A stretch of 64,000 nucleotides of DNA, from positions 496,001 through 560,000 of the forward strand of contig NZ_JAAVUW010000001.1 in assembly GCF_018449605.1 (NCBI RefSeq). Reading direction: 5' to 3'. This stretch comes from Luteibacter sp. dw_328. GTDB lineage: Bacteria > Pseudomonadota > Gammaproteobacteria > Xanthomonadales > Rhodanobacteraceae. Both the position numbers and the translations under genes were made by a program. The notes below the pieces were generated by a model, which was given only the letters and a program-made list of their open reading frames with translations, searched no databases and was not told where the DNA came from. Every line of letters begins with the position of its first letter. Position 1 is the first letter of the stretch. Below, one piece after another: positions 2,387 through 51,037 of the stretch.

Positions 2387-3363
2387 CCGCTTGCCCGCTT
2401 CTTTTCGCGCTCTTCGTTCCAGGCGCGGTGCGAGGCTTCATCCTGGAAGGTCCAGGCGACGAAGCGGCTCTGCTTGTTGCCCTGGGCCATGTTGACCGTG
2501 CGCACGTCGAGCGCCTTCGCGTGGGTGAGCGCGCGGTAGATCTCATTGAGGTGTTCGCTCCGCGCGACCAGCGTGGTGAACCAGAGCACCGTGCGCGAGT
2601 AACTCGTGCTTTCGGTGATCATCGTGCGGATGAAGCGTTCCTCACCGCCCTGGCACCACAGTTCGCGACCCTGGCCACCGAAGTTGAGGTTGGTGGTTCG
2701 CGGCGGCGCGTTCTTGTCCAGGTTGCGTGTCTTGCGGATGTTGCCTGCCGCGGCTTCGCGGGCGGAGGCATGGAACGGCGGGTTGCACATGCTGACGTCG
2801 AAGCGATCTTCGGGGCGTAGTAACTGCTCGAAGACGTGGATCGGGTTCTCCTGGCGACGCAGGAAGATCCCGTCTCCTAGGCCCGGGTTACCATCGACAA
2901 TGCCTTTGGCGGCACGCAGCGCGTGTGTGTCCACTTCGGAGGCGGTAAACCGCCAACCATATTCGCGGTTGCCGATGAGCGGGTAGATCAGGTTCGCACC
3001 CGTACCGATGTCCAGCGCACGAACGCCGGCCCCGGTGGGAATCTGACCCCCGTTGGAACTGGCCAGCAGATCCGCCACGCCGTGCACGTAGTCGGCGCGG
3101 CCCGGGATGGGTGGCACCAGATAGTCCGGTGGGATGTCCCAATGAGCGATGCCGTACTGGGACTTCAACAGCGCCCGGTTCAGCGCCCGAACGGCGTGTG
3201 GATCCGAGAAATCGATGCTGTCCTCACCGTGGCCGTTGTCGCCGACATAGGCCGCGAGCAAGGGCAATTGCCGCGAGAGCTCGGCAAAGTCATAGCGCCC
3301 GGTGTGGCGATTGCGTGGGTGCAGGGACGTCACCGCAGGGGCGGCGGACTTGGGTTTCTTCAT
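2380..3363 (-). CDS. rlmF: 23S rRNA (adenine-1618-N6)-methyltransferase RlmF
   Basis: SAM-dependent enzyme that methylates A1618 of 23S rRNA. 327 residues, close to family length. The N-terminus carries LHPRNRHTGRYDF, typical of RlmF/YbiN. The catalytic NPPF motif is present as CNPPFHAS, and the SAM-binding segment ALDIGTGANLIYPL is visible. The start at 3363 (MKKPKSAAP) matches the family. The open frame extends upstream, but that part has no family features and overlaps the gene at 3458. Confidence 0.93.
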   Translation of the reverse strand: MKKPKSAAPAVTSLHPRNRHTGRYDFAELSRQLPLLAAYVGDNGHGEDSIDFSDPHAVRALNRALLKSQYGIAHWDIPPDYLVPPIPGRADYVHGVADLLASSNGGQIPTGAGVRALDIGTGANLIYPLIGNREYGWRFTASEVDTHALRAAKGIVDGNPGLGDGIFLRRQENPIHVFEQLLRPEDRFDVSMCNPPFHASAREAAAGNIRKTRNLDKNAPPRTTNLNFGGQGRELWCQGGEERFIRTMITESTSYSRTVLWFTTLVARSEHLNEIYRALTHAKALDVRTVNMAQGNKQSRFVAWTFQDEASHRAWNEEREKKRASGY

Positions 3364-34426: not shown

Positions 34427-34540
34427 TGTCCGTTGCGATTTGAGGCAGGGCGAGCCGCCGGGGGCGGTAACGTGCACAAATTGTCATAACCCGTCGTGAT
34501 AATCGCCGGCGCAGGGGACAACCAGCGCACGGGGATACGC

Positions 34541-36640
34541 ATGACGATCCAGGACCGACGACACTTCCTGAAGCTTTCCCTTGGCGCGGCGGGTGCCGCG
34601 TTCACGGCGTCGGTACTGCCGCCATCCATCCAGAAGGCGCTCGCGATACCCGCGGCACGTCGTACTGGCACGCTCAAGGACGTCGAACACGTGGTCATCC
34701 TCATGCAGGAGAACCGCTCGTTCGATCATTACTTCGGCAGCATGCGCGGCGTGCGAGGCTTCGGTGATCCCCGGACACTCACGCTCTCCAGTGGCCGCTC
34801 AGTCTGGCACCAGCCGCTGACCGCCGGCAGTGACGACTATCTGCTCCCGTTCCGCCCGCAGGCGGACAACCTCGGCCTGCAGTTCATCGAAGATCTTCCG
34901 CACGGCTGGAACGATACGCACGGCGCCTTCAACGCCGGCAAGTACGACCAATGGGTGCCGTCGAAGGGCACGACGACCATGGCTTACCTGACGCGCGAGG
35001 ACATCCCGTTCCACTATGCGCTGGCGGACGCCTTTACCGTCTGCGACGCGTATCACTGCTCGATGCTTTCCTCGACCGATCCCAACCGTTACTACATGTG
35101 GACCGGTTACGTCGGCAACGACGGGCAGGGTGGCGGACCGGTGCTCTCCAATGCGGAGCTGGGCTACGGCTGGACGACCTACCCGGAACGTCTCGAGGCG
35201 GCCGGCGTGTCGTGGAAGATATACCAGGACGTGGGTACCGGCCTCGACGCGGCGGGCGGCTGGGGCTGGGGTTCCAATCCCTACATCGGCAACTATGGCG
35301 ACAACTCGCTCCTCTACTTCAATCAGTACCGGAATGCCGAGCCGGGCAACCCGTTGTACGACAAAGCCCGCACGGGCACGAATACGCTGAATGGGCAGTC
35401 GCTGTTCGACCTCCTGCAGAAGGATGTCATGGCCGACCGCCTGCCGCAGGTTTCATGGATCGCGGCACCCGAAGCGTATACCGAGCACCCTAGCTGGCCC
35501 GCCAACTACGGTGCCTGGTATGTCGACCAGGTGCTCGATGCCTTGACGGCCAATCCGGACGTCTGGAGCAAGACGGCGCTGTTCATTACCTACGATGAAA
35601 ACGACGGCTTCTTCGATCACATGCTGCCGGCGTACCCGCCGCAGTCACGCGACCGGGGGCTGTCCACGGTCAGCATCGATGGTGAAGTCTACGCGGGCGG
35701 CAACGGTTTCAATGCGGGCGTTTACGGCCTTGGCGTGCGTGTACCGATGATGGTCGTTTCGCCGTGGAGCAAGGGCGGCTGGGTGTGTTCGGAGACCTAC
35801 GACCATACGTCCATCCTCCGTTTCCTCGAGCAGCGCTTCGGTGTGCGCGAGCCGAACATCTCTGCCTGGCGGCGTGCGGTCTGCGGCGACCTGACCCGCG
35901 CCTTCGATTTTGAAGGCCACGATGGGCGCGTGCCGCCTTTGCCCTCGACCACGGGCTACCAGCCTGATCGCACTACCCACAGTGACTTCAGTCCGACGCC
36001 GCCGACTCACCAGCAGCTTCCGCGACAGGAGCGTGGGCAACGTCCGGCGCGTGCACTGGCCTACGCACTCGAAGTGACAGGCAAGCTCGACCAGGCACAG
36101 GGACGTTACGTCCTTGGATTCGGCAACACCGGCGACATCGGTGCCTGCTTCAGCGTGACCTCGTCGCTCCGTTCCGACGGTCCGTGGACCTATACGGTGG
36201 AAGCCGGTAAATCGTTGTCCGACTACTGGACCAGCTCCAACAGCGGCGATGCGTACGACCTCACCGTGATCGGGCCGAACGGCTTCCTTCGCCAGTTCAG
36301 TGGCAAGCAGCCGGGTCTGGTCGAAGATCGCCGGCGTCTTGCGCTACCCGAGGTCACGATGTCCGAGGGACGTCATTCGGGTGAGTTGCATCTGGTCATG
36401 AGCAACGAGGGTGGGCGTCCTTGCGCCATTACGATCGAAGCCAACGCGTATCTCCGCCAACCGCCGCAGCGTTTCTGGCTGCAGCCGGGGGAGCACGCGG
36501 AGGCCCGGTTCGATATCACCGGCTGCGACCATTGGTACGACCTTACCGCGACCAGTGATTCCGATGCGTCGTTTCGCCGGCGGTTCGCGGGGCACCGCGA
36601 GACCGGGCAGGCATCCGTCTCCGATCCGGCGTTCTCCTAG
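34541..36640 (+). CDS. Tat-exported phosphocholine-type phospholipase C
   Basis: 699 residues. Twin-arginine signal at the N-terminus (RRHFLKLSLGAAG, Arg6-Arg7). Phosphoesterase family domain (about 40-420; HVVILMQENRSFDHYFG, with the metal-binding Glu-Asn, and TYDENDGFFDH), then C-terminal DUF756 domains (about 480-690). This is the PlcN/PlcH-like architecture that hydrolyses phosphatidylcholine or phosphatidylserine outside the cytoplasm. The ATG at 34541 follows GGGGA. Confidence 0.92.
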   Translation: MTIQDRRHFLKLSLGAAGAAFTASVLPPSIQKALAIPAARRTGTLKDVEHVVILMQENRSFDHYFGSMRGVRGFGDPRTLTLSSGRSVWHQPLTAGSDDYLLPFRPQADNLGLQFIEDLPHGWNDTHGAFNAGKYDQWVPSKGTTTMAYLTREDIPFHYALADAFTVCDAYHCSMLSSTDPNRYYMWTGYVGNDGQGGGPVLSNAELGYGWTTYPERLEAAGVSWKIYQDVGTGLDAAGGWGWGSNPYIGNYGDNSLLYFNQYRNAEPGNPLYDKARTGTNTLNGQSLFDLLQKDVMADRLPQVSWIAAPEAYTEHPSWPANYGAWYVDQVLDALTANPDVWSKTALFITYDENDGFFDHMLPAYPPQSRDRGLSTVSIDGEVYAGGNGFNAGVYGLGVRVPMMVVSPWSKGGWVCSETYDHTSILRFLEQRFGVREPNISAWRRAVCGDLTRAFDFEGHDGRVPPLPSTTGYQPDRTTHSDFSPTPPTHQQLPRQERGQRPARALAYALEVTGKLDQAQGRYVLGFGNTGDIGACFSVTSSLRSDGPWTYTVEAGKSLSDYWTSSNSGDAYDLTVIGPNGFLRQFSGKQPGLVEDRRRLALPEVTMSEGRHSGELHLVMSNEGGRPCAITIEANAYLRQPPQRFWLQPGEHAEARFDITGCDHWYDLTATSDSDASFRRRFAGHRETGQASVSDPAFS

Positions 36641-41814: not shown

Positions 41815-42612
41815 ATGTCCCGAGTGCTGATACCCGTGGTGCTCCAGTTCCAGAAGGTCGCGGCCAACAGCGGCATCAACATCACCTTCGAGACGCCAGG
41901 CGTACGCTGGTCGTTGGGCCGCCGCCTTGGCGACAGCATGGGCTTTTCGTACAACGTCACGTCGGATGCCAGCGACAGCGGCACACCCATCCTGCGTTCA
42001 GTGGCGTTCAACGACAGCGTGCTGCAGCTCACTACCTCGGCCATCGCGCCTGCGTCCAACGACTTTACCTTCACCCTGTTCGTGGAGGTCGAGGAAGGGA
42101 CGACGTTCGTGCAGGGTTATTGCACTGTCAACAACGAAGCGAACGTCCTTGCCTTCTTTAGCGATGGCCCGCCGGCGTTGTGGCGGAACGGACGCATCAG
42201 TGCCAGCTTCCATCGGGAATCGCGGCGGTACCACACGGTGCTTCTCAACATTCGCAACGTTCGGCCGGGCCGCCAGTTGGATATCGTGGTCGACTCCGAC
42301 ATGGACGCCAATGTGCGCTGGTCCTTCGGACCTTACCGGCGGGGCGCTAACGGCATCATGGTCAGCAATCAGACCAGCGGCGCTGTGCAGCTGGCTTCAT
42401 GGTCGATGACTTCGAGCGAGATTCGCCTGCGCACCGGCGATACGGGCAGCTCGACCGACCTGGCGTTACGCACCTACGTTTCCTACGGGGAGGTGGATCC
42501 TGGCCGCTTGTTCCTCAAGACGGTGGGCGATACGGACATCTCGGTGCTCGCCCAGGTCGGCACGCGCCAACCGCAATGGGTGGGCTCGGCCTATACCCTG
42601 TTTACCTTGTGA
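41815..42612 (+). CDS. eCIS-associated protein 4 with internal beta-domain duplication
   Basis: 265 residues. It appears to contain two copies of a roughly 100-residue beta domain. VRWSLGRRLGDSMGFSYN (about 30-47) matches VRWSFGPYRRGANGIMVSN (about 161-179), and the segments about 60 residues after each copy also align. The preceding gene carries a third related copy. Not recognised by family. Its stop overlaps the next ATG (TGATG), indicating translational coupling. Confidence 0.65.
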   Translation: MSRVLIPVVLQFQKVAANSGINITFETPGVRWSLGRRLGDSMGFSYNVTSDASDSGTPILRSVAFNDSVLQLTTSAIAPASNDFTFTLFVEVEEGTTFVQGYCTVNNEANVLAFFSDGPPALWRNGRISASFHRESRRYHTVLLNIRNVRPGRQLDIVVDSDMDANVRWSFGPYRRGANGIMVSNQTSGAVQLASWSMTSSEIRLRTGDTGSSTDLALRTYVSYGEVDPGRLFLKTVGDTDISVLAQVGTRQPQWVGSAYTLFTL

Positions 42613-43265
42613 TGCCCATGGCTTCCGTCGATAGCGGGCAGGTGGTGCGCTGGGTCAGCGAATCGTTGCGCCAACTCGTGCGCGCGCATATTCCGTTGTT
42701 GGCGGCGGAGTCTGCCGTCGTGTTCGATTCGCCGGCGGAGATGGATGCGCAGAGCGAGAACAAGCTGTCGGTGTATCTCTTCCAGCTGGAGCACAACCCC
42801 TGGCTGCGCAACCTGCCACCCACACTGGATCGCCGCCCGTCTGCAACCGATCGGCCCAGTGCCATGCAGATGACGCCGGCGCCCCTGGTGGTCGACCTGA
42901 TGTACACGATGGTCCCGTATGCCAAGTCCGCCGAGATCGAACTGGTACTGGCGGACGAACTGCTTCGCCTGTTCCACGACGTGCCGGCGCTGGAGGGGAA
43001 GTGGCTTCACCAGGGCCTGCGCGATGCCGGCAACGAGCGTATCGAGATCGTCCCGCGAGCGACATCGCTGGACGGCCTGCGCGACATCTGGTCCGGCTTC
43101 CAAGGCAAGGCGTACAAACTCACGAAGCTCTACACCCTGACGCCAGTTCGCATTCCTTCGACGCGTCCAGTCGATGTCGACATGGTCACGAACACCGATC
43201 TGTCCATCGTCAATACCCGGCCACTGCCGGCGAACTTCAACGAGGCATCGCGATGCACCGACTGA
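42612..43265 (+). CDS. DUF4255 protein (Pvc16/Afp16 N-domain; tail terminator)
   Basis: 217 residues. VVRWVSESLRQLVR, the conserved ENKLSVYLFQLEHNPWLRN and PLVVDLMYTMVPYA identify the Pvc16 N-terminal domain. In Afp/PVC particles this protein caps the tube and sheath end distal to the baseplate and fixes particle length. It is encoded here before the sheath gene rather than at the 3' end as in Afp/PVC. Start at 42612 overlaps the upstream stop; 42618 is an alternative. Confidence 0.85.
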   Translation: MPMASVDSGQVVRWVSESLRQLVRAHIPLLAAESAVVFDSPAEMDAQSENKLSVYLFQLEHNPWLRNLPPTLDRRPSATDRPSAMQMTPAPLVVDLMYTMVPYAKSAEIELVLADELLRLFHDVPALEGKWLHQGLRDAGNERIEIVPRATSLDGLRDIWSGFQGKAYKLTKLYTLTPVRIPSTRPVDVDMVTNTDLSIVNTRPLPANFNEASRCTD

Positions 43266-43829: not shown

Positions 43830-45461
43830 GTGGCCAACTATCAGCACCCGGGCGTCTATATCCAGGAGATTCCCAGTACGCGCAGCATCCAGGGTGCCTC
43901 GACGTCGATGCCGGCTTTCATCGGTGTCACCGACAGCGGCCCGCTGAACACGCCGACGCTGATCACCAGCTGGAACGCCTACACGCGCCTGTTCGGCGGG
44001 CTGGTGTGGATGGGCTTCACCTCCTGGGCGGTCTACGAGTTCTTTCAGGAAGGCGGCGCCGCCTGCTACGTGCTGCGCGTGGCCGACAAGACCGGCGCGC
44101 CTGCCACCAGCACGGTGGGCACTGCCAAGATGGTCGCCACCACTAGCGGCACCTGGGGCGCGAGCCTCATGTACTACATAAGCAACAGCGGTGGTCCACC
44201 ACCTAACGGCGGTGGCACGCCTCAGCCGACACCCGTGTTCAACTTCCAGATCGTCGTACAGGCGACGACCATCGACGGCGCCGGCGCCAACGCGGACAAA
44301 CTCAGCACGCAGTTGCTGGTGAATTTTGTGCGGCAGAACGGCCTCGCCCCGGTGGCAATCGGCGGCAACAGCTATTACGTGCTGGAGACCTTCAGCGGCC
44401 TTACCTTCCTGGATGCGGCGGCCGTTGGACGTATCAATTCGCAGTCGATGTTCGTACGTCTTGCCCTGGCGACGCCCAAAGACAGCCAGCGGCCCGGCAA
44501 CACGACCACGCCCATGGCACTCAGTGGCGGAACCAACGGCCAGCTGGATTTTCCCACCGCGCAGGAAGCGATCAAGACCGTACAGGGCCTGAGCCTTCTG
44601 GCGCAGCCGGACACCGCCGCGATCGTCGACAGCAATGGCAAATCCGACCCGATCAAGCAGGCCCAGCTGATCAACCAGGGCATGCTGTTGTGCGAGACCC
44701 TTGCCAACCTGTTCTACGCGGCCGATCCACCGTTCGGACAGAGCGTGCAGCAGATCGTCGCGTTCAAGTCGGGCACCGCGCAGTCCGGAGGTCAAACCCA
44801 GCCGCAGGCGATCAATTCCAGCTACGGCTCGCTCTACTACCCGTGGCTCTGGATCTTCAATCCGCTCTCGGGCAGCAACGTGCCGATTCCACCGTCGGGG
44901 CCGGTACTCGGCCGCTACGCCCACACCGACAGCAGCGTGGGTGTGTGGAAGTCGCCGGCCGGTGTGAATGACGGCAGCATGCGCACGGTGGTCGGTGTCG
45001 AACGGCCGATTACCGACGACGACCAGAGCCAGCTCAATCCCAACGGCGTCAACGCGGTACGCAACCTGATCAACTACGGCAACGTGATCTACGGCGCCCG
45101 TACCGTTTCCCTGGATACGCAATGGACCTACCTGAGCGTGCGCCGCCTGTTCATCTACGTCGAGCAGAGCCTGAAGAACAGCCTGCAGTGGGTGGTGTTC
45201 GAATCGAACGACCAGACCTTGTGGGCCGCGGTAACGCGCGACATCGATGCCTTCCTCACTACGCTGTGGCAGCAGGGCGGCCTGTTCGGCGCCACGCCGC
45301 AAGAAGCCTTTTTCGTCACCTGTGACGCGAGCAACAATCCGCCCGAGACGCGCATGCTGGGGCAGTTGTACATCGACATCGGACTGGCGCCGGTCTATCC
45401 GGCCGAGTTCGTCATCATCCGCATCACCCAGAAAACCGCCGGCCCGGATTCGGGCAGCTAA
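43830..45461 (+). CDS. Contractile tail sheath protein
   Basis: 543 residues. Forms the contractile outer cylinder. The N-terminus ANYQHPGVYIQEIPS, the insert-bearing middle and the C-terminal INYGNVIYGARTVSLDTQWTYLSV with VRRLFIYVEQSL are hallmarks of phage sheath/Afp2-4 proteins. Starts with GTG after GGAAAGGAACCAGGA. A single sheath gene is present in the window, whereas Afp and PVC have three. Confidence 0.95.
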   Translation: MANYQHPGVYIQEIPSTRSIQGASTSMPAFIGVTDSGPLNTPTLITSWNAYTRLFGGLVWMGFTSWAVYEFFQEGGAACYVLRVADKTGAPATSTVGTAKMVATTSGTWGASLMYYISNSGGPPPNGGGTPQPTPVFNFQIVVQATTIDGAGANADKLSTQLLVNFVRQNGLAPVAIGGNSYYVLETFSGLTFLDAAAVGRINSQSMFVRLALATPKDSQRPGNTTTPMALSGGTNGQLDFPTAQEAIKTVQGLSLLAQPDTAAIVDSNGKSDPIKQAQLINQGMLLCETLANLFYAADPPFGQSVQQIVAFKSGTAQSGGQTQPQAINSSYGSLYYPWLWIFNPLSGSNVPIPPSGPVLGRYAHTDSSVGVWKSPAGVNDGSMRTVVGVERPITDDDQSQLNPNGVNAVRNLINYGNVIYGARTVSLDTQWTYLSVRRLFIYVEQSLKNSLQWVVFESNDQTLWAAVTRDIDAFLTTLWQQGGLFGATPQEAFFVTCDASNNPPETRMLGQLYIDIGLAPVYPAEFVIIRITQKTAGPDSGS

Positions 45462-45475
45462 GCCGGAGCTGACAT

Positions 45476-45922
45476 ATGGCCACCCAACTGACCGACCCGT
45501 TCCGCGGCTTCCGTTTCCGTGTCGAGATCGCCGGCATCCAGATCGCCTCGTTTTCCGAAGCGAGCGTGCCGGACATCAGCGTCGACACGGTCGACTACCG
45601 CGAAGGCACTGACCCGACCTACAAGCGCACCCTATCGGGCCTGACCAACTACGGCCGCCTCAACCTCAAGAAGGGGCTGACCACCACCCTGGACCTGTAC
45701 AACTGGCAGCAGCAGGTGTCCCAGCTCGGCTCCGGCAGTCCGGGCGCGCGCAAGAACATCTCGCTGATCCTGATGGATACGGCCGGTGCCGAGGGCGCCC
45801 GTTGGAACATCATCAACGCCTGGCCGGTGAAGTACGACACCACGGGGCTCAACGCGTCCTCCACCGAGGTGTTGGTGGAGACGCTTGAACTGGCCATGGA
45901 TTACATCAACCGCATCAAGTGA
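45476..45922 (+). CDS. Inner tube protein (Afp1/gp19-like)
   Basis: 148 residues, the usual length for Afp1/Pvc1. PFRGFRFRVEIAGIQIASFSEAS begins at residue 8 (quoted short: RFRVEIAGI), and ILMDTAGAEGARWNIINAWPVKY is in the second half. It forms the hexameric inner tube through which cargo passes. Start ATG 14 bp after the sheath stop. Confidence 0.95.
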   Translation: MATQLTDPFRGFRFRVEIAGIQIASFSEASVPDISVDTVDYREGTDPTYKRTLSGLTNYGRLNLKKGLTTTLDLYNWQQQVSQLGSGSPGARKNISLILMDTAGAEGARWNIINAWPVKYDTTGLNASSTEVLVETLELAMDYINRIK

Positions 45923-45935
45923 CAGGGGAAGCAAC

Positions 45936-46310
45936 GTGAGCGTAATCAGTACCGAAGTCGAATTCACCCTGCCTATCGGCTACCGCGACGGTGACGGCAA
46001 CCTGCATCGCCAGGGCGTGATGCGCCTGGCCACCGCCGGTGACGAGATCCTGCCGCTGAAGGACCACCGCGTGCAGGCCAATCCCGCCTACCTGTCGATC
46101 ATCGTGCTGTCGCGCGTGGTGACCCGGCTGGGCACCCTGGAAATGATCAGCACGCACGTCATCGAGGAACTGTTCTCGGCGGACTTCGCGTACCTGCAGG
46201 ACCTCTACAACCGCATCAACCAGATGGACGGCGCGGACGACGAGGTGGCCGCTTCCGCGGGAAAAGGGCAGGCGGCGCGGCTGCACCCGATCAGCTCTAC
46301 GCCGAGATAG
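45936..46310 (+). CDS. Tail-assembly-chaperone-like protein (short, unshifted product)
   Basis: 124 residues. FTLPIGYRDGDGNLHRQG and MRLATAGDEILPLKD are typical of phage E/gp41-type tail assembly chaperones (PF10109-like), which in phages such as P2 are made in two forms by frameshifting. GTG start with GGGGAAG upstream. The zero frame ends 15 codons after the GGGAAAA heptamer at 46259-46265; a -1 slip there would replace that tail with the DUF6760 domain, giving a 174-residue protein. Confidence 0.85.
   Translation: MSVISTEVEFTLPIGYRDGDGNLHRQGVMRLATAGDEILPLKDHRVQANPAYLSIIVLSRVVTRLGTLEMISTHVIEELFSADFAYLQDLYNRINQMDGADDEVAASAGKGQAARLHPISSTPR
46259..46265 (+). promoter_or_regulatory. Predicted -1 ribosomal frameshift site GGGAAAA
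   Basis: Zero-frame codons read GCG GGA AAA GGG, so the heptamer has the register G-GGA-AAA, the canonical X-XXY-YYZ form (lambda G/T uses GGGAAAG). A Shine-Dalgarno-like GAGGTG (46242-46247) lies 11 bases upstream, where internal SD sites stimulate -1 slips. A small hairpin with GCAG/CTGC arms (46268-46284) follows three bases downstream. Confidence 0.75.
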
Positions 46311-46459
46311 CGTTCGTCGCGTACCACTTTCACTGGTCGTTGGACGACGTGTTGGCGCTGGAGCACAAGGAACGCCGTCGCTTCTGTGAGCACATCAGCC
46401 GCATCAACCAGGCCATGAGCGCGGACGAGCCGCGGCGAAGCCTCGATCTGGAGACATGA
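46265..46459 (+). CDS. Afp6/DUF6760-like domain, expressed only by -1 frameshift (predicted)
   Basis: 64 codons plus stop in the -1 frame of the preceding gene. The conserved eCIS motif DQLYAEIAFVAYHFHW and DVLALEHKERRRFCEHISRIN identify the small Afp6/Pvc6-type (DUF6760) protein. No ATG, GTG or TTG occurs in this frame from about 46142 to the conserved motif; the first TTG falls inside the domain. Continuous coding from the slip site makes a fusion to the chaperone the simplest reading. Its stop is one base before the next gene's ATG. Confidence 0.8.
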   Translation, partial: RAGGAAAPDQLYAEIAFVAYHFHWSLDDVLALEHKERRRFCEHISRINQAMSADEPRRSLDLET

Positions 46460-46460
46460 G

Positions 46461-46991
46461 ATGGCATTGGGCATCAACGCGGCAGCCGCCGTGGCCAATC
46501 GCGCGGGACTGCATCTGGACCCGTTCAAGTCCTATAACTTCTTCGTGGAGGTGGAGGGCATCCTGGTCGGCGGCTTCACCTCGGTACGCGGGATGGACTC
46601 GAAGATGGAAGTGGTGACCATCCGCGAGGGTGGCGTCAACGACCGTGCCTATAAGCTGGGCGGGCAGGTCGGTTACAGCGATCTCGTGCTGGAGTCGGGG
46701 CTGACCGCGCTCGACCCGATGTGGCTGTGGTACCAATCCACCCTGCAGGGCACCATCAAGCGCCGTAACGGTTCGATCTACATGCTCAACGACGTGGGCT
46801 TGCCCACGGTCTGGTACGACTTCTACAACGCGTGGCCGATTGAGTGGCAGGGACCAGCGCTGGATGCCGGACAAACCCTGGTGGCGACGCAGCGCTTCGT
46901 GCTCGCTCACGAAGGCGTGCGCAAGAGTCGCGCGGCGATGGCGTACTCGGCTGCGGTGGGTGTCGCTTCGGCCGTGGGTGGCGCGCTCTGA
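46461..46991 (+). CDS. Second tube protein (Afp5-like tube initiator)
   Basis: 176 residues, gp19-like tube fold: SYNFFVEVEGILVGGF, VRGMDSKMEV and WYDFYNAWPIEWQG. It resembles Afp5/Pvc5, which sits between the inner tube and the LysM/hub proteins and starts tube polymerisation. It carries an extra Ala-rich C-terminal tail (about 155-176). GGAG precedes the ATG. Its stop overlaps the next gene by one base (TGATG). Confidence 0.9.
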   Translation: MALGINAAAAVANRAGLHLDPFKSYNFFVEVEGILVGGFTSVRGMDSKMEVVTIREGGVNDRAYKLGGQVGYSDLVLESGLTALDPMWLWYQSTLQGTIKRRNGSIYMLNDVGLPTVWYDFYNAWPIEWQGPALDAGQTLVATQRFVLAHEGVRKSRAAMAYSAAVGVASAVGGAL

Positions 46992-48268
46992 TGCACCAGC
47001 GCAACGCCCTGGGTCGTGTGCTATCGCGTGCCGTCCGCCGGCCGGCGCGTGACGCGCTGCCACCATCGCGCTTACGCTTGCGCACGCACCGGATGCTGTT
47101 CGGCATGTCGGGCGGCGTCCGGCTGCTTTATCTGACGGCGTCTCGGACGTCCGCCGCGATGCGGATCGACAACCGGCTCACCGTACGGCTGCTCATGGCC
47201 GAAGCACGCGCTGCGCGCGCGACTTCGCTTCACGCCTACCTCGTGTGCATGATCGCTGCGCGCGAGTTCGTCGCAAGCCGAGGGCATCACGCGGAGCGCC
47301 GCATCGTTGCGCGCGGCGTGCATGGTTCGCGTACGGCACGGTCGCTCGCTACCGGCGATGGGATCTTGCATCTGTTGCGAGCACCGGATCAAGGGCAGTC
47401 GGCGTCGGTACGCGGGAGCCAGCGCCACGACGTACTGCGCACGCTGACGTTGTCACAGATCCTGTCCGGCACACAGCGATTCTTCCGGGATCTGAAGAAC
47501 AGGCAAGTACCGTCGGTCGACGGACGGAAGGCCTCGTCCCGGCGTGATGCGCCCGGCTTGCGCGGTGGGCCCAAGACGCCAATGCGATCGGCCATCGACG
47601 CGAGCACCGCGGCGCAGCGCATTGTGGCCACGAGGCGGCACACGTCGCAGCCGATCGACGATCTCTCGAAGAACATCCCGACAGGACGGCCCGGCAGCAC
47701 GGCACCCTCGCATCGACCCACGACACGACCCTGGATGCGTCTGCGTGACCGGCACGCCCCATCCTTGCGCGGAAAAGGTGCAACGCCCCGGACAACCGCT
47801 GCGCGCCAGGCTTCTGCGAATGCCTTGCCGCGCATGACGTACTTCCTGGCCTTGGCGCGCCATCGCATGGTAGCGATGTCAGCTGCCGAGGGACCTCGTC
47901 CGGGCACACCGGACACACCGCGCGAGCGGGCGGCCGCCCGTCTCTCGGCGTTTCACCTGATCGACACGGTCATCACCCAAGCGGCAATATCCCCGTCGAT
48001 GCCGCGCAGTTATGCCAGTAAACCCTCCACCACGCTCACGTTCCGCCGTACACCACGCGCCGCGCCACCCGATGCAAAGCGCCAGACCAGTCAGCTGCAA
48101 CAGCAGGTGGTGCGCCAGGTCACGCAGGAGCTCGCGCAGAACGCGCCCTGGCGTGGCCAACTCGAACAGGCCGTGCTTGCACCGCGCGTGCTGCGTGAAC
48201 TGACCGACCGGGTGGCCGGCGCGATCGCCGGGCGCCAGGGTCTCGAACGCTATCGCCGGGGGCTGTGA
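46991..48268 (+). CDS. Extremely Arg-rich eCIS protein of unknown function
   Basis: 425 residues with 69 Arg and only about 7 Lys. The first 340 residues look mostly disordered and basic. The last 60, from SQLQQQVVRQVTQELAQNAPWR to the C-terminus, look like a folded helical module. It is coupled to its neighbours at both ends (TGATG; overlap with GTGATG). No family recognised. Possible roles: tape-measure-like tube filler (no separate Afp14-like gene is visible here), or nucleic-acid or cargo binder. The start at 46991 fits coupling. Confidence 0.7.
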   Translation: MHQRNALGRVLSRAVRRPARDALPPSRLRLRTHRMLFGMSGGVRLLYLTASRTSAAMRIDNRLTVRLLMAEARAARATSLHAYLVCMIAAREFVASRGHHAERRIVARGVHGSRTARSLATGDGILHLLRAPDQGQSASVRGSQRHDVLRTLTLSQILSGTQRFFRDLKNRQVPSVDGRKASSRRDAPGLRGGPKTPMRSAIDASTAAQRIVATRRHTSQPIDDLSKNIPTGRPGSTAPSHRPTTRPWMRLRDRHAPSLRGKGATPRTTAARQASANALPRMTYFLALARHRMVAMSAAEGPRPGTPDTPRERAAARLSAFHLIDTVITQAAISPSMPRSYASKPSTTLTFRRTPRAAPPDAKRQTSQLQQQVVRQVTQELAQNAPWRGQLEQAVLAPRVLRELTDRVAGAIAGRQGLERYRRGL

Positions 48269-48912
48269 TGCTGGAGAAGGCCAAAATCATCGTGCGGCCC
48301 ACCGCCGAGACCATCCCGGTGATGTACAACCCCACCGAGTTGTCGCTCAACAAATCGGTGGTCGTGCAGGGCGAGGGCTCGAACATCCAGTTCCAGCGGG
48401 TCAACGATGATGACCTGACGGTCAATCTGTTTTTCGATACCTACGACAAGCGCACTGACGTGCGGCTTTACACCAACCGCATTGCCGCGCTGACCCAGCC
48501 CACGGTCGGCACGGGCATGCGCAAGGAACCGCCGACGGTCGTGTTCTCCTGGGCCGGGGCGCTGTTTACCGGCATCATCGTGCGGCTGGAACAGAAGTTC
48601 ACCATGTTCCTGGAATCGGGCGTGCCGGTGCGTGCCGAGCTCAACGTCACCTTCAAGTCCGTCCTCACCGTGCAACAGGACCTGGCTGCGCGCGGCTACT
48701 ACAACTGCCGTCAGTTCTGGACGGTGGGCGAGAATGACCGCCTCTACCTGGTGGCCCAGCACACGCTCGGCGACCCTGCGCTGTGGCGACTGATCGCCGA
48801 TGCCAACGGGATCGACGATCCCCTGAACTTCCCGACGCGTGCGGACATCGGTCGCACCCTGGTGATCGTCGACGTACACGGCGAGTCCTATACGCCGCCG
48901 GCGAGGGTGTGA
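48268..48912 (+). CDS. LysM/tube-connector protein (Afp7-like)
   Basis: 214 residues. The N-terminal CIS tube-connector domain (about 1-145) includes VMYNPTELSLNKSVVVQGEG and VNLFFDTYDKRTDVR. A C-terminal LysM-like module (about 150-205) is visible in DRLYLVAQHTLGDPALWRLIADANGIDDP. It links the tube to the hub. Starts at the ATG overlapping the previous stop. Confidence 0.9.
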   Translation: MLEKAKIIVRPTAETIPVMYNPTELSLNKSVVVQGEGSNIQFQRVNDDDLTVNLFFDTYDKRTDVRLYTNRIAALTQPTVGTGMRKEPPTVVFSWAGALFTGIIVRLEQKFTMFLESGVPVRAELNVTFKSVLTVQQDLAARGYYNCRQFWTVGENDRLYLVAQHTLGDPALWRLIADANGIDDPLNFPTRADIGRTLVIVDVHGESYTPPARV

Positions 48913-48913
48913 G

Positions 48914-49966
48914 ATGGCCGTCAGTGCCCAAGCGGAAACCGGCGCCTTCCGGCTGTTGCTCAACCGGCAGCCCCTCCCGCTGTCGATGCAGGCGGCGATC
49001 AGTTCGGTCGAGGTATCGAACGAGATCAACGTGCCGGGCATGTTCAACTTCACGTTCAGCATGCTGTCGCAACTGGGCAATTGGCAGGGCGCGGATCTGG
49101 ATCTGTTCAAGCCGGGCGACCAGGTCGGCGTGCAGATGGGCCTGGGTCAGCCACGCACCGTGCTCACCGGGCAGATCTACGCGATCGAACCCAATTTCGC
49201 CGAGTACTCCGCGGCCACGGTCAGCGGCTTCGATGCGATGGCGAAGCTTCGCTTCGGCAACCACTCCGAGATATACAGCGGGATAGATGAAAACCGCATC
49301 GCCAGGAAGGTAGCAGACGCCGCGCGCGTCGACCTGAGCACCCCCGGGCCGCCGGTCATGCTCAATGAAACCGTGTGGCAGCGGCAGCAGAACAACTATC
49401 ACTTCCTGCTGGGACGTTGTGCGCTGATCAACCATGAGCTGGTGGTGGACGGGACCACGGTCGTGTTCCGTCCCAGCGCCGAGGGCTTGTCACCGGTGAA
49501 GTCGCTGGCTTTTCCGCGAGACATCCGTCGCGTCGACCTCCGTCTGCGTGTGCCCACTGAGGGCAGCACGGTACAGGTGCTCGGCTTCGATCCCGCCACC
49601 AACAAGCCGATCAGCGCGCGCAGTAACCCGAACACGGTGCGTGCCCGCATGGGTGGCAGCGAATCGGGCTTCGACTTCATCGGGGCGTTTCCCGACGCCG
49701 CCATCAACATCACCGACCCGAGCCTCACCAAGGTACAGGCGCTGCAGTCGCGTGCAGACGCCGAATACATGCAGAACCTCGATCGCTTCATCGAGGGCGA
49801 GCTGGAACTGGAAGGTGATCCGGACCTCAACGCGGGAGTGAACGTGCGCCTTACCGGCCTGAGCCGGCGCTTTGACGGCATCTATTACGTACGCTCGAGC
49901 CGCCACCACTACGACGACGCGACTGGCTATCGCACCACACTGCAATTGCGCCGGACCGGCGCATGA
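48914..49966 (+). CDS. Baseplate hub protein (gp27/late-control-D-like, N-half of Afp8)
   Basis: 350 residues. Matches phage late control D/VgrG N-terminal hub domains (SAQAETGAFRLLLNRQ, GDQVGVQMGLGQPRTVLTGQI). In Afp and PVC the hub and spike are one protein (Afp8); here the gp5-like spike is the next, separate gene. A trimer of this protein joins the six-fold tube to the spike. Confidence 0.9.
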   Translation: MAVSAQAETGAFRLLLNRQPLPLSMQAAISSVEVSNEINVPGMFNFTFSMLSQLGNWQGADLDLFKPGDQVGVQMGLGQPRTVLTGQIYAIEPNFAEYSAATVSGFDAMAKLRFGNHSEIYSGIDENRIARKVADAARVDLSTPGPPVMLNETVWQRQQNNYHFLLGRCALINHELVVDGTTVVFRPSAEGLSPVKSLAFPRDIRRVDLRLRVPTEGSTVQVLGFDPATNKPISARSNPNTVRARMGGSESGFDFIGAFPDAAINITDPSLTKVQALQSRADAEYMQNLDRFIEGELELEGDPDLNAGVNVRLTGLSRRFDGIYYVRSSRHHYDDATGYRTTLQLRRTGA

Positions 49967-49979
49967 GGAAAACCCATTG

Positions 49980-50609
49980 ATGGACGATCTTTCAATGCCG
50001 CAGGCCTTGCCCGGCGCCATGCTCGGTGGCGTCACCGTGGCGATGGTTGAGAAGACCGACGACCCGCAGGGGCTGGGCCGCGTCACGGTCAGCTTCCTGG
50101 TCGACGGCCAGCGGCTGGAGTCGGGCTGGCTGCAGGTGATGAGCGGCTTCGCCGGCCCCGGCTACGGCGCTTTCTTCCTGCCTGCCGTGGGCCAGTCGGC
50201 ACTGGTGGCATTCGCCGATGGCGATATCAACCAGCCCTTCGTGCTGGGCTTCCTCTGGAACGGCGGGATCAAACCGCCGGTAGAGGGTGCGGCCGTGCAG
50301 CAGGACGTTCGCGTCATCCGCACGGCCAAGGGCAAGCAACTGCTGCTGGACGACAGCGAGAACGGCCAGCTGACCCTGATCGACGAGAAGCAGAACAAGG
50401 TCCAGATCGACACCGCCAACCAGCGCATTGTTGTGGAGACCAAGGGCGATGTGACCGTCACGGCCGGCGGCACGCTGACACTCAAGGCCGCCAACGTGGT
50501 GCTGCAGAACACGGCCGGCTCGGTGAAGCTGGAACTGGGCGCGAACGGCCTGCAGGCGAATGGCGGGCAGAGCATGAAGCTCAACGCCGCCATGGTCGAA
50601 ATCAACTGA
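49980..50609 (+). CDS. Baseplate spike protein (gp5/VgrG OB-fold and beta-helix)
   Basis: 209 residues. An OB-fold (about 10-95: VTVAMVEKTDDPQGLGRVTVSF, FLPAVGQSALVAFADGD) is followed by a short triple-stranded beta-helix (about 110-205: QLTLIDEKQNKVQIDTANQRIVVETKGDVTVTAGG and following repeats, seen at about 135-170). This is the membrane-piercing spike, carrying the PAAR tip encoded next. Confidence 0.92.
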   Translation: MDDLSMPQALPGAMLGGVTVAMVEKTDDPQGLGRVTVSFLVDGQRLESGWLQVMSGFAGPGYGAFFLPAVGQSALVAFADGDINQPFVLGFLWNGGIKPPVEGAAVQQDVRVIRTAKGKQLLLDDSENGQLTLIDEKQNKVQIDTANQRIVVETKGDVTVTAGGTLTLKAANVVLQNTAGSVKLELGANGLQANGGQSMKLNAAMVEIN

Positions 50610-50623
50610 CGGGAGAACGACCG

Positions 50624-51037
50624 ATGGGCAAGCCAGCAGCGCGCATGGGCGACAGCATCGTCAACGCCGGTGACATCCACATCGTACTGGTCCCCTCGCC
50701 GGGCGGTCCGGTGCCGACGCCACAGCCGTGCCCGTTCAATGGGCGCATCCAGACCAACGTCAGCATGAACGTGCGCATCAACGGACGAGGCGCCGCACTG
50801 CTGGGCTCGATCGCGCAGAACATGCCGCCACACGTACCGCAGGGTGGTCCGTTCCAGGTGCCGCCGACCAACCTCGGGCGCGTGATCATGGCCAGCGCCA
50901 CCGTGCGCATCAACGGTCGCGGCGCGGCGCGCGCCGGCGATTTCTGTGAGACCTGCCATGACATCCCGCCAGTCGGCCCGCAGGCGCCGATGCCACTGGT
51001 CGTCGTGGCCGGCGTCGCGAACGTGCTGATCGGATGA
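50624..51037 (+). CDS. PAAR-like spike tip protein
   Basis: 137 residues. PAARMGDSIV starts the PAAR-like repeat series; GRGAALLGS, ATVRINGRGAARAGD and the Cys pair CETCH near residue 108 are consistent with a metal-stabilised tip (Afp10/Pvc10 role). It caps the spike. Ends with a four-base ATGA overlap into the gp25 gene. Confidence 0.9.
   Translation: MGKPAARMGDSIVNAGDIHIVLVPSPGGPVPTPQPCPFNGRIQTNVSMNVRINGRGAALLGSIAQNMPPHVPQGGPFQVPPTNLGRVIMASATVRINGRGAARAGDFCETCHDIPPVGPQAPMPLVVVAGVANVLIG

Follow-up and report, generated by a model that had tools for sequence, protein, structure and literature searches.

A predicted programmed −1 ribosomal frameshift joins a tail-assembly-chaperone-like protein to DUF6760 in contractile injection systems

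As judged from sequence comparison, a programmed −1 ribosomal frameshift at the end of a tail-assembly-chaperone-like gene (TAC) very probably directs the synthesis of two proteins, TAC and a TAC-DUF6760 fusion, in a contractile injection system encoded by Luteibacter sp. dw_328, and it points to the same arrangement in related machines of many bacteria and of some archaea. The locus lies in a stretch of 64,000 nucleotides, hereafter the window (contig NZ_JAAVUW010000001.1, positions 496,001 to 560,000). The initial annotation of this DNA had predicted such a frameshift, with products of 124 and 174 amino acids made according to the logic of the lambda G/GT and P2 E/E′ chaperones, a prediction that the comparison strongly supported. 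The window locus alone could not show significance, which therefore rests on the comparative counts presented below.

All features of the window described here are on the forward strand. The TAC gene (45936..46310) is read in what we call the zero frame from a GTG start at 45936 to a TAG at 46308-46310, and its assignment relies on its homologues and on the match of its 124-aa product to PHROG 508, ‘tail assembly chaperone’ (E = 2.6e-10). The −1 frame that carries DUF6760 (46265..46459) extends from AGG at 46265 to a TGA at 46457-46459, and its domain matched PF20546 at E = 8.4e-19. Both the coordinates and the −1 relation to the gene starting at 45936 were as initially annotated. The pair sits between two tube genes (45476..45922 and 46461..46991, both PF06841), downstream of a sheath gene (43830..45461; PF17482, PF04984) and of a gene for a Pvc16-type cap protein (42399..43265; PF14065), and it is followed by genes for a CIS_tube protein (48265..48912; PF19266), a spike OB-domain protein (49872..50609; PF04717) and a PAAR protein (50624..51037; PF05488), with the ORF starts of the cap and spike proteins being uncertain. 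Hence, the sheath, tube, CIS_tube protein, spike, PAAR and Pvc16-type cap components by which an eCIS is recognized were all present, and no tape-measure gene was identified within the window. A 714-aa phospholipase-C-like protein (PF04185, PF05506) is encoded at 34496-36640, several kb ahead of the injection genes.

Inside the overlap between TAC and the DUF6760 frame lies the slippery heptamer G GGA AAA (46259..46265). It stands in the zero-frame register, as the initial annotation had proposed, with GGA at 46260-46262 and AAA at 46263-46265, and a slip at this point would yield a product of 110 + 64 = 174 aa. GGA is an uncommon codon here, used for 9 of the 109 glycines in five injection-system genes of the window. 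The Shine-Dalgarno (SD)-like sequence GAGGTG that had been noted 11 nt upstream of the heptamer was likewise found, at 46242..46247. Ahead of DUF6760, the −1 frame is open from 265 nt before the TAC stop codon, and this stretch contains no ATG, GTG or TTG.

Homologous loci were collected by two routes. On the one hand, an alignment of 12 TACs was used to scan species genomes, which returned at least 590 stretches encoding a relative; the best 80 loci were fetched, together with 9 from viral contigs and 12 from plasmid records. A tblastn search of TAC against phages gave no match at E values up to 0.1. On the other hand, the DUF6760 family itself was searched for in the sampled groups to avoid selecting by TAC alone, and it was found in the groups centred on a Streptomyces locus (112 of 200 genomes), a cyanobacterial locus (23 of 244), a myxobacterial locus (22 of 193), a haloarchaeal locus (25 of 145) and a Lachnospiraceae locus (11 of 245), and in 3 of 274 genomes of the window's class, its own among them. 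Finally, once the slippery pattern had been fixed, the window's order was searched, and 8 of 348 genomes matched, including that of the window. The 218 loci collected before this last search comprised 205 with the pair, 11 with TAC only, one with DUF6760 only and one with neither. Within the first 104 loci, the 12 lacking a DUF6760 match were left out of the junction counts (L003, L005, L012, L014, L016, L018, L019, L020, L032, L049, L062 and L083). Counts of sites and starts refer either to the 203 loci with DUF6760 in the −1 frame or to 103 of 105 representatives below 80% identity, a crude position-by-position measure; since some loci come from one genome fetched twice, the representatives were meant to remove duplicates.

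The relative frame of the two coding regions was nearly invariant. DUF6760 followed TAC in the −1 frame in 203 of the 205 pairs, and in 103 of the 105 representatives. By comparison, the frames of neighbouring pairs were mixed among the representatives, with 44, 28 and 25 cases in the three frames for tube to TAC and 19, 18 and 17 for DUF6760 to tube. The two exceptions were L153, in which the TAC frame is broken upstream of a local junction of standard appearance, and L217, whose junction looks decayed.

An in-register slippery pattern within the open overlap was present in 100 of the 103 representatives, compared with 25.0 ± 4.0 when synonymous codons were shuffled within each TAC, and patterns in the other two registers occurred only 13 and 3 times. 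Here, the pattern comprised strict X XXY YYZ or GGGGGAR, the latter having been added after the data were seen; the strict form alone was found in 51 representatives, against 16.7 ± 3.1 in the shuffles. With regard to the type of site, G GGG GRN predominated (73 representatives), followed by G GGA AAN (10), A AAU UUU (8) and U UUU UUN (6), which together account for 97 representatives, and three others had only unusual strict patterns (CCCTTTC, CCCGGGG and GGGCCCT). Three of the 103 representatives, or 5 of the 203 loci, had no site. Complete re-pairing at G GGG GAR is possible in the P site alone, which makes its slip efficiency uncertain. A quick TAC tree showed at least ten changes in the type of site, and the 49 representatives with a named phylum were spread over 13 phyla, two of them archaeal. 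Furthermore, all seven loci added by the later search of the window's order had DUF6760 in the −1 frame and an in-register site.

Start codons bear directly on whether DUF6760 might instead be a gene of its own, whose translation begins by termination-reinitiation where a stop and a start codon overlap (ATGA or GTGA), with the −1 frame as a by-product of the 4-nt overlap, which always gives that frame. In favour of this reading, the only NTG was the one formed with a TGA stop in 19 of the 103 representatives, and another 7 had some other near start; the domain begins with a GTG codon in L017 and L219, two close kin of the window, and the Haloferax and S. clavuligerus records annotate an ATG or GTG of DUF6760 overlapping the TAC stop, so that an overlap start is possible for those records. 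However, the open −1 frame ahead of the domain lacked ATG, GTG and TTG in 56 of the 103 representatives, as it does in the window, in line with the initial annotation, and 21 had a standard start only more than 24 nt upstream (these counts ignore starts beyond the second codon of the domain, and other definitions of a start give other counts). In addition, TAC ended in TAA or TAG in 73 of the 103 representatives, and a TGA not preceded by C creates an NTG by itself, which was the case for 23 of the 30 TGA stops. Some annotated starts also look forced, namely an ATA in the Nostoc record (L009, 1863-2033) and a TTG inside the conserved domain in the Rhodococcus record (L007, 1890-2033). Because reinitiation would, moreover, leave the in-register slippery sites unexplained, we consider it unlikely. 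Clear independent starts without slippery sites in homologues, which the initial annotation had named as evidence against itself, were thus not the picture obtained: sites were found in 100 and startless frames in 56 of the 103 representatives.

Two further readings were weighed against a programmed frameshift. Slippage of RNA polymerase on a homopolymeric run, by which some transcripts would carry the fused frame, is suggested by the many sites that are runs of five to seven G or six to seven T; yet G GGA AAR and A AAU UUU, which are not long homopolymers, occupy the same place, and polymerase slippage is independent of the codon register in which the sites are so strongly concentrated. We therefore give it hardly any credence. 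That the DUF6760 region of the window is a decaying or mis-assembled frame, as the missing start codon and two pairs elsewhere of decayed or frame-broken appearance (L217 and L153) might indicate, is very improbable, though slightly less so, given the strong PF20546 match of the window's domain and the pattern of conservation among its close kin. These are L017, from the earlier scan, and L219, L221 and L222, fetched later, and all four keep the domain, its frame and, in the window's register, the heptamer G GGA AAR (AAG in L017 and L219, AAA in L221 and L222), while the linker sequence between has diverged. The conservation of GGGAAA(A/G) among homologous loci, proposed at the outset as a check of the frameshift, was thereby borne out for the kin of the window.

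A programmed frameshift of the E. coli dnaX type would also involve stimulatory elements on either side of the heptamer. Of the 73 representatives with a G GGG GRN site, 46 had an SD-like tetramer 6-16 nt upstream, most often at 10-11 nt, against 26.6 ± 2.9 after synonymous shuffling. The GGGAAA class was not clearly raised (7 of 10, against 5.5 ± 1.3), and two other small classes pointed in the same direction with numbers too small to weigh (4 of 7, against 1.7 ± 1.0, and 5 of 7, against 3.0 ± 1.1). Upstream of the heptamer, the window and its kin L017, L219, L221 and L222 all have a GAGG or GGAG core.

Downstream, 5 nt after the G GGG GRN heptamer, GGCUACC(C)CCUC faces GAGG(A)GGUAGCC in a putative stem of 11 pairs. 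In the 62 of 73 representatives with the site at one fixed distance, 85.0% of cells were paired, a count that leans towards those sequences, since conserved wobble positions had led to the choice of the stem by eye before any pairs were counted. Two-sided changes occurred in 45 cells, where shuffles gave 16.8 ± 3.3; for the covariation score, the corresponding values were 0.211 and 0.116 ± 0.009. When the partner was slid by one to three columns, pairing fell to 31-57%, although the covariation score of the +1 slide was still 0.177. The number of pair types was not above that of shuffles, 149 of 500 of which reached the observed value, and wobble positions were more uniform inside the stem than just downstream of it. 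RNAalifold returned an empty structure for the 62 sequences, as did scripted folding of the set, apart from one weak fold that did not match. Among single sequences, L022 (z −4.4) and L026 (z −5.7) folded well and L195 moderately (z −2.7), and the folds of the window, L017, L034, L071 and L077 were not significant. In particular, the small hairpin downstream of the window's heptamer, which the initial annotation had noted, was at chance level (z +0.62; 140 of 200 shuffles folded at least as well). Given a stem in the G GGG GRN class and no significant hairpin in the window, the stem is to be regarded as a feature of that class and not of the window locus.

A number of TACs occurred apart from DUF6760. 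Among the best loci fetched, those outside the window's order with TACs most like that of the window were L016, L018, L019, L020 and L049 (about 2986-3330 in each), with 76-87% identity to the query segment, compared with 88% for L017. Within the fetched flanks of these five loci, there was no homologue of the window's sheath, tube or DUF6760 and no −1 DUF6760 frame after TAC; the neighbours include a HAD hydrolase, a LysR regulator, a TonB receptor and a GH1 protein, and a Pvc16_N match was absent in 4 of the 5 genomes. Possibly, the chaperone has found a second use outside injection systems. Separately, a Pseudanabaena plasmid (L005, 1-1827) carries three annotated tail proteins and TAC without DUF6760, the next gene being a COR-domain gene on the other strand.

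Comparison of the loci reveals a −1 frame, frequent lack of a start codon and an in-register site, complemented in the commonest class by an SD-like element and a stem, and we infer from these the production of both proteins, their ratio and their roles. In the mechanism that we propose, most ribosomes would make the 124-aa chaperone. With the upstream GAGGTG as an aid, a minority would move back by one base at G GGA AAA (46259-46265) and go on to make the 174-aa chaperone-DUF6760 fusion, and the frequency of slipping would determine how much short chaperone is made relative to the long one. By analogy with lambda G/GT, the chaperone part may attach to the tape measure or to the tail under assembly, and the DUF6760 extension may recruit tube subunits. 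It is a fair inference from this analogy that DUF6760 would act as the equivalent of the T domain, as a T-like adaptor.

Taking these elements together, we lean towards a broader reading, in which the TAC-DUF6760 frameshift is conserved and probably ancestral in one large branch of contractile injection systems of bacteria and archaea, selection keeps the site slippery while its sequence changes repeatedly, the ratio set by slippage matters for tube assembly, and DUF6760 is a new, unnamed counterpart of lambda T. In the literature searched, which included few subscription papers and some sources only in part, no earlier report of frameshifting in an eCIS and no mention of DUF6760 was found. 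A public mass spectrometry data set for Streptomyces coelicolor particles (MSV000091288, listed in PMC10020575) may allow a test at once. If the proposal is true, domesticated phage tails have kept the frameshift control of tail assembly used by phages. The frameshift would also account for startless and mis-called DUF6760 frames, such as those placed on ATA in Nostoc and on an internal TTG in Rhodococcus, and it would fill in a missing gene product for research on injection particles and for their engineering. Likewise, the loci would form a natural series of one recoding event, extending to archaea, in which the slippery sequence has changed at least 10 times on the TAC tree.

With respect to known systems, the E. 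coli dnaX-type −1 signal combines an SD-like element about 10 nt upstream, a heptamer and a downstream stem. The G GGG GRN class shares this layout, each of its three elements being above controls, although the dnaX gene is unrelated and its heptamer different; the window has the heptamer and the SD-like element, and its stem was not significant. The chaperones of T4-like phages, likewise chaperones of contractile tails, are reportedly produced otherwise, the title of a 2022 study by Vladimirov, Gautam and Davidson arguing for a non-frameshift mechanism. Corynephage phi16 has a putative −1 site GGGGGAA with an internal SD sequence GAGG and a pseudoknot (PMC5506516). GGGGGAA is also the commonest heptamer in our set, and an SD-like element upstream, RNA structure downstream and a setting in tail assembly genes are common to both; unlike phi16, a prediction for one phage, our set has a stem-loop and covers many hosts. 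As for the ‘Afp6-like’ label initially given to DUF6760, both are small proteins of contractile injection systems, but Afp6/Cis6/Alg6 is a structural protein, described as the trimeric spike plug (PMC8894136, PMC8894135), and the label is therefore unsupported. In agreement, the only match of the DUF6760 profile to PDB sequences was to a designed-looking chain at E = 8.7, in a copy of the PDB from which plug chains are perhaps absent. PDB searches for a spike plug in L007 and in the ORF that precedes the CIS_tube gene likewise gave no credible match.

The closest parallels are with phages lambda, whose heptamer is GGGAAAG, and P2. Lambda gpG/gpGT and P2 E/E+E′ share with our loci a chaperone-like gene, a −1 extension, an in-register site and two predicted products; the tail assembly chaperone logic is that of lambda G/GT (PMC5009743), and the P2 slippery site is TTTTTTG (PMC3091744). 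DUF6760 is likened to lambda T by role and not by a demonstrated sequence link. Here, unlike in both phages, the gene belongs to an injection system, has a tube gene on either side and carries DUF6760 as its extension.
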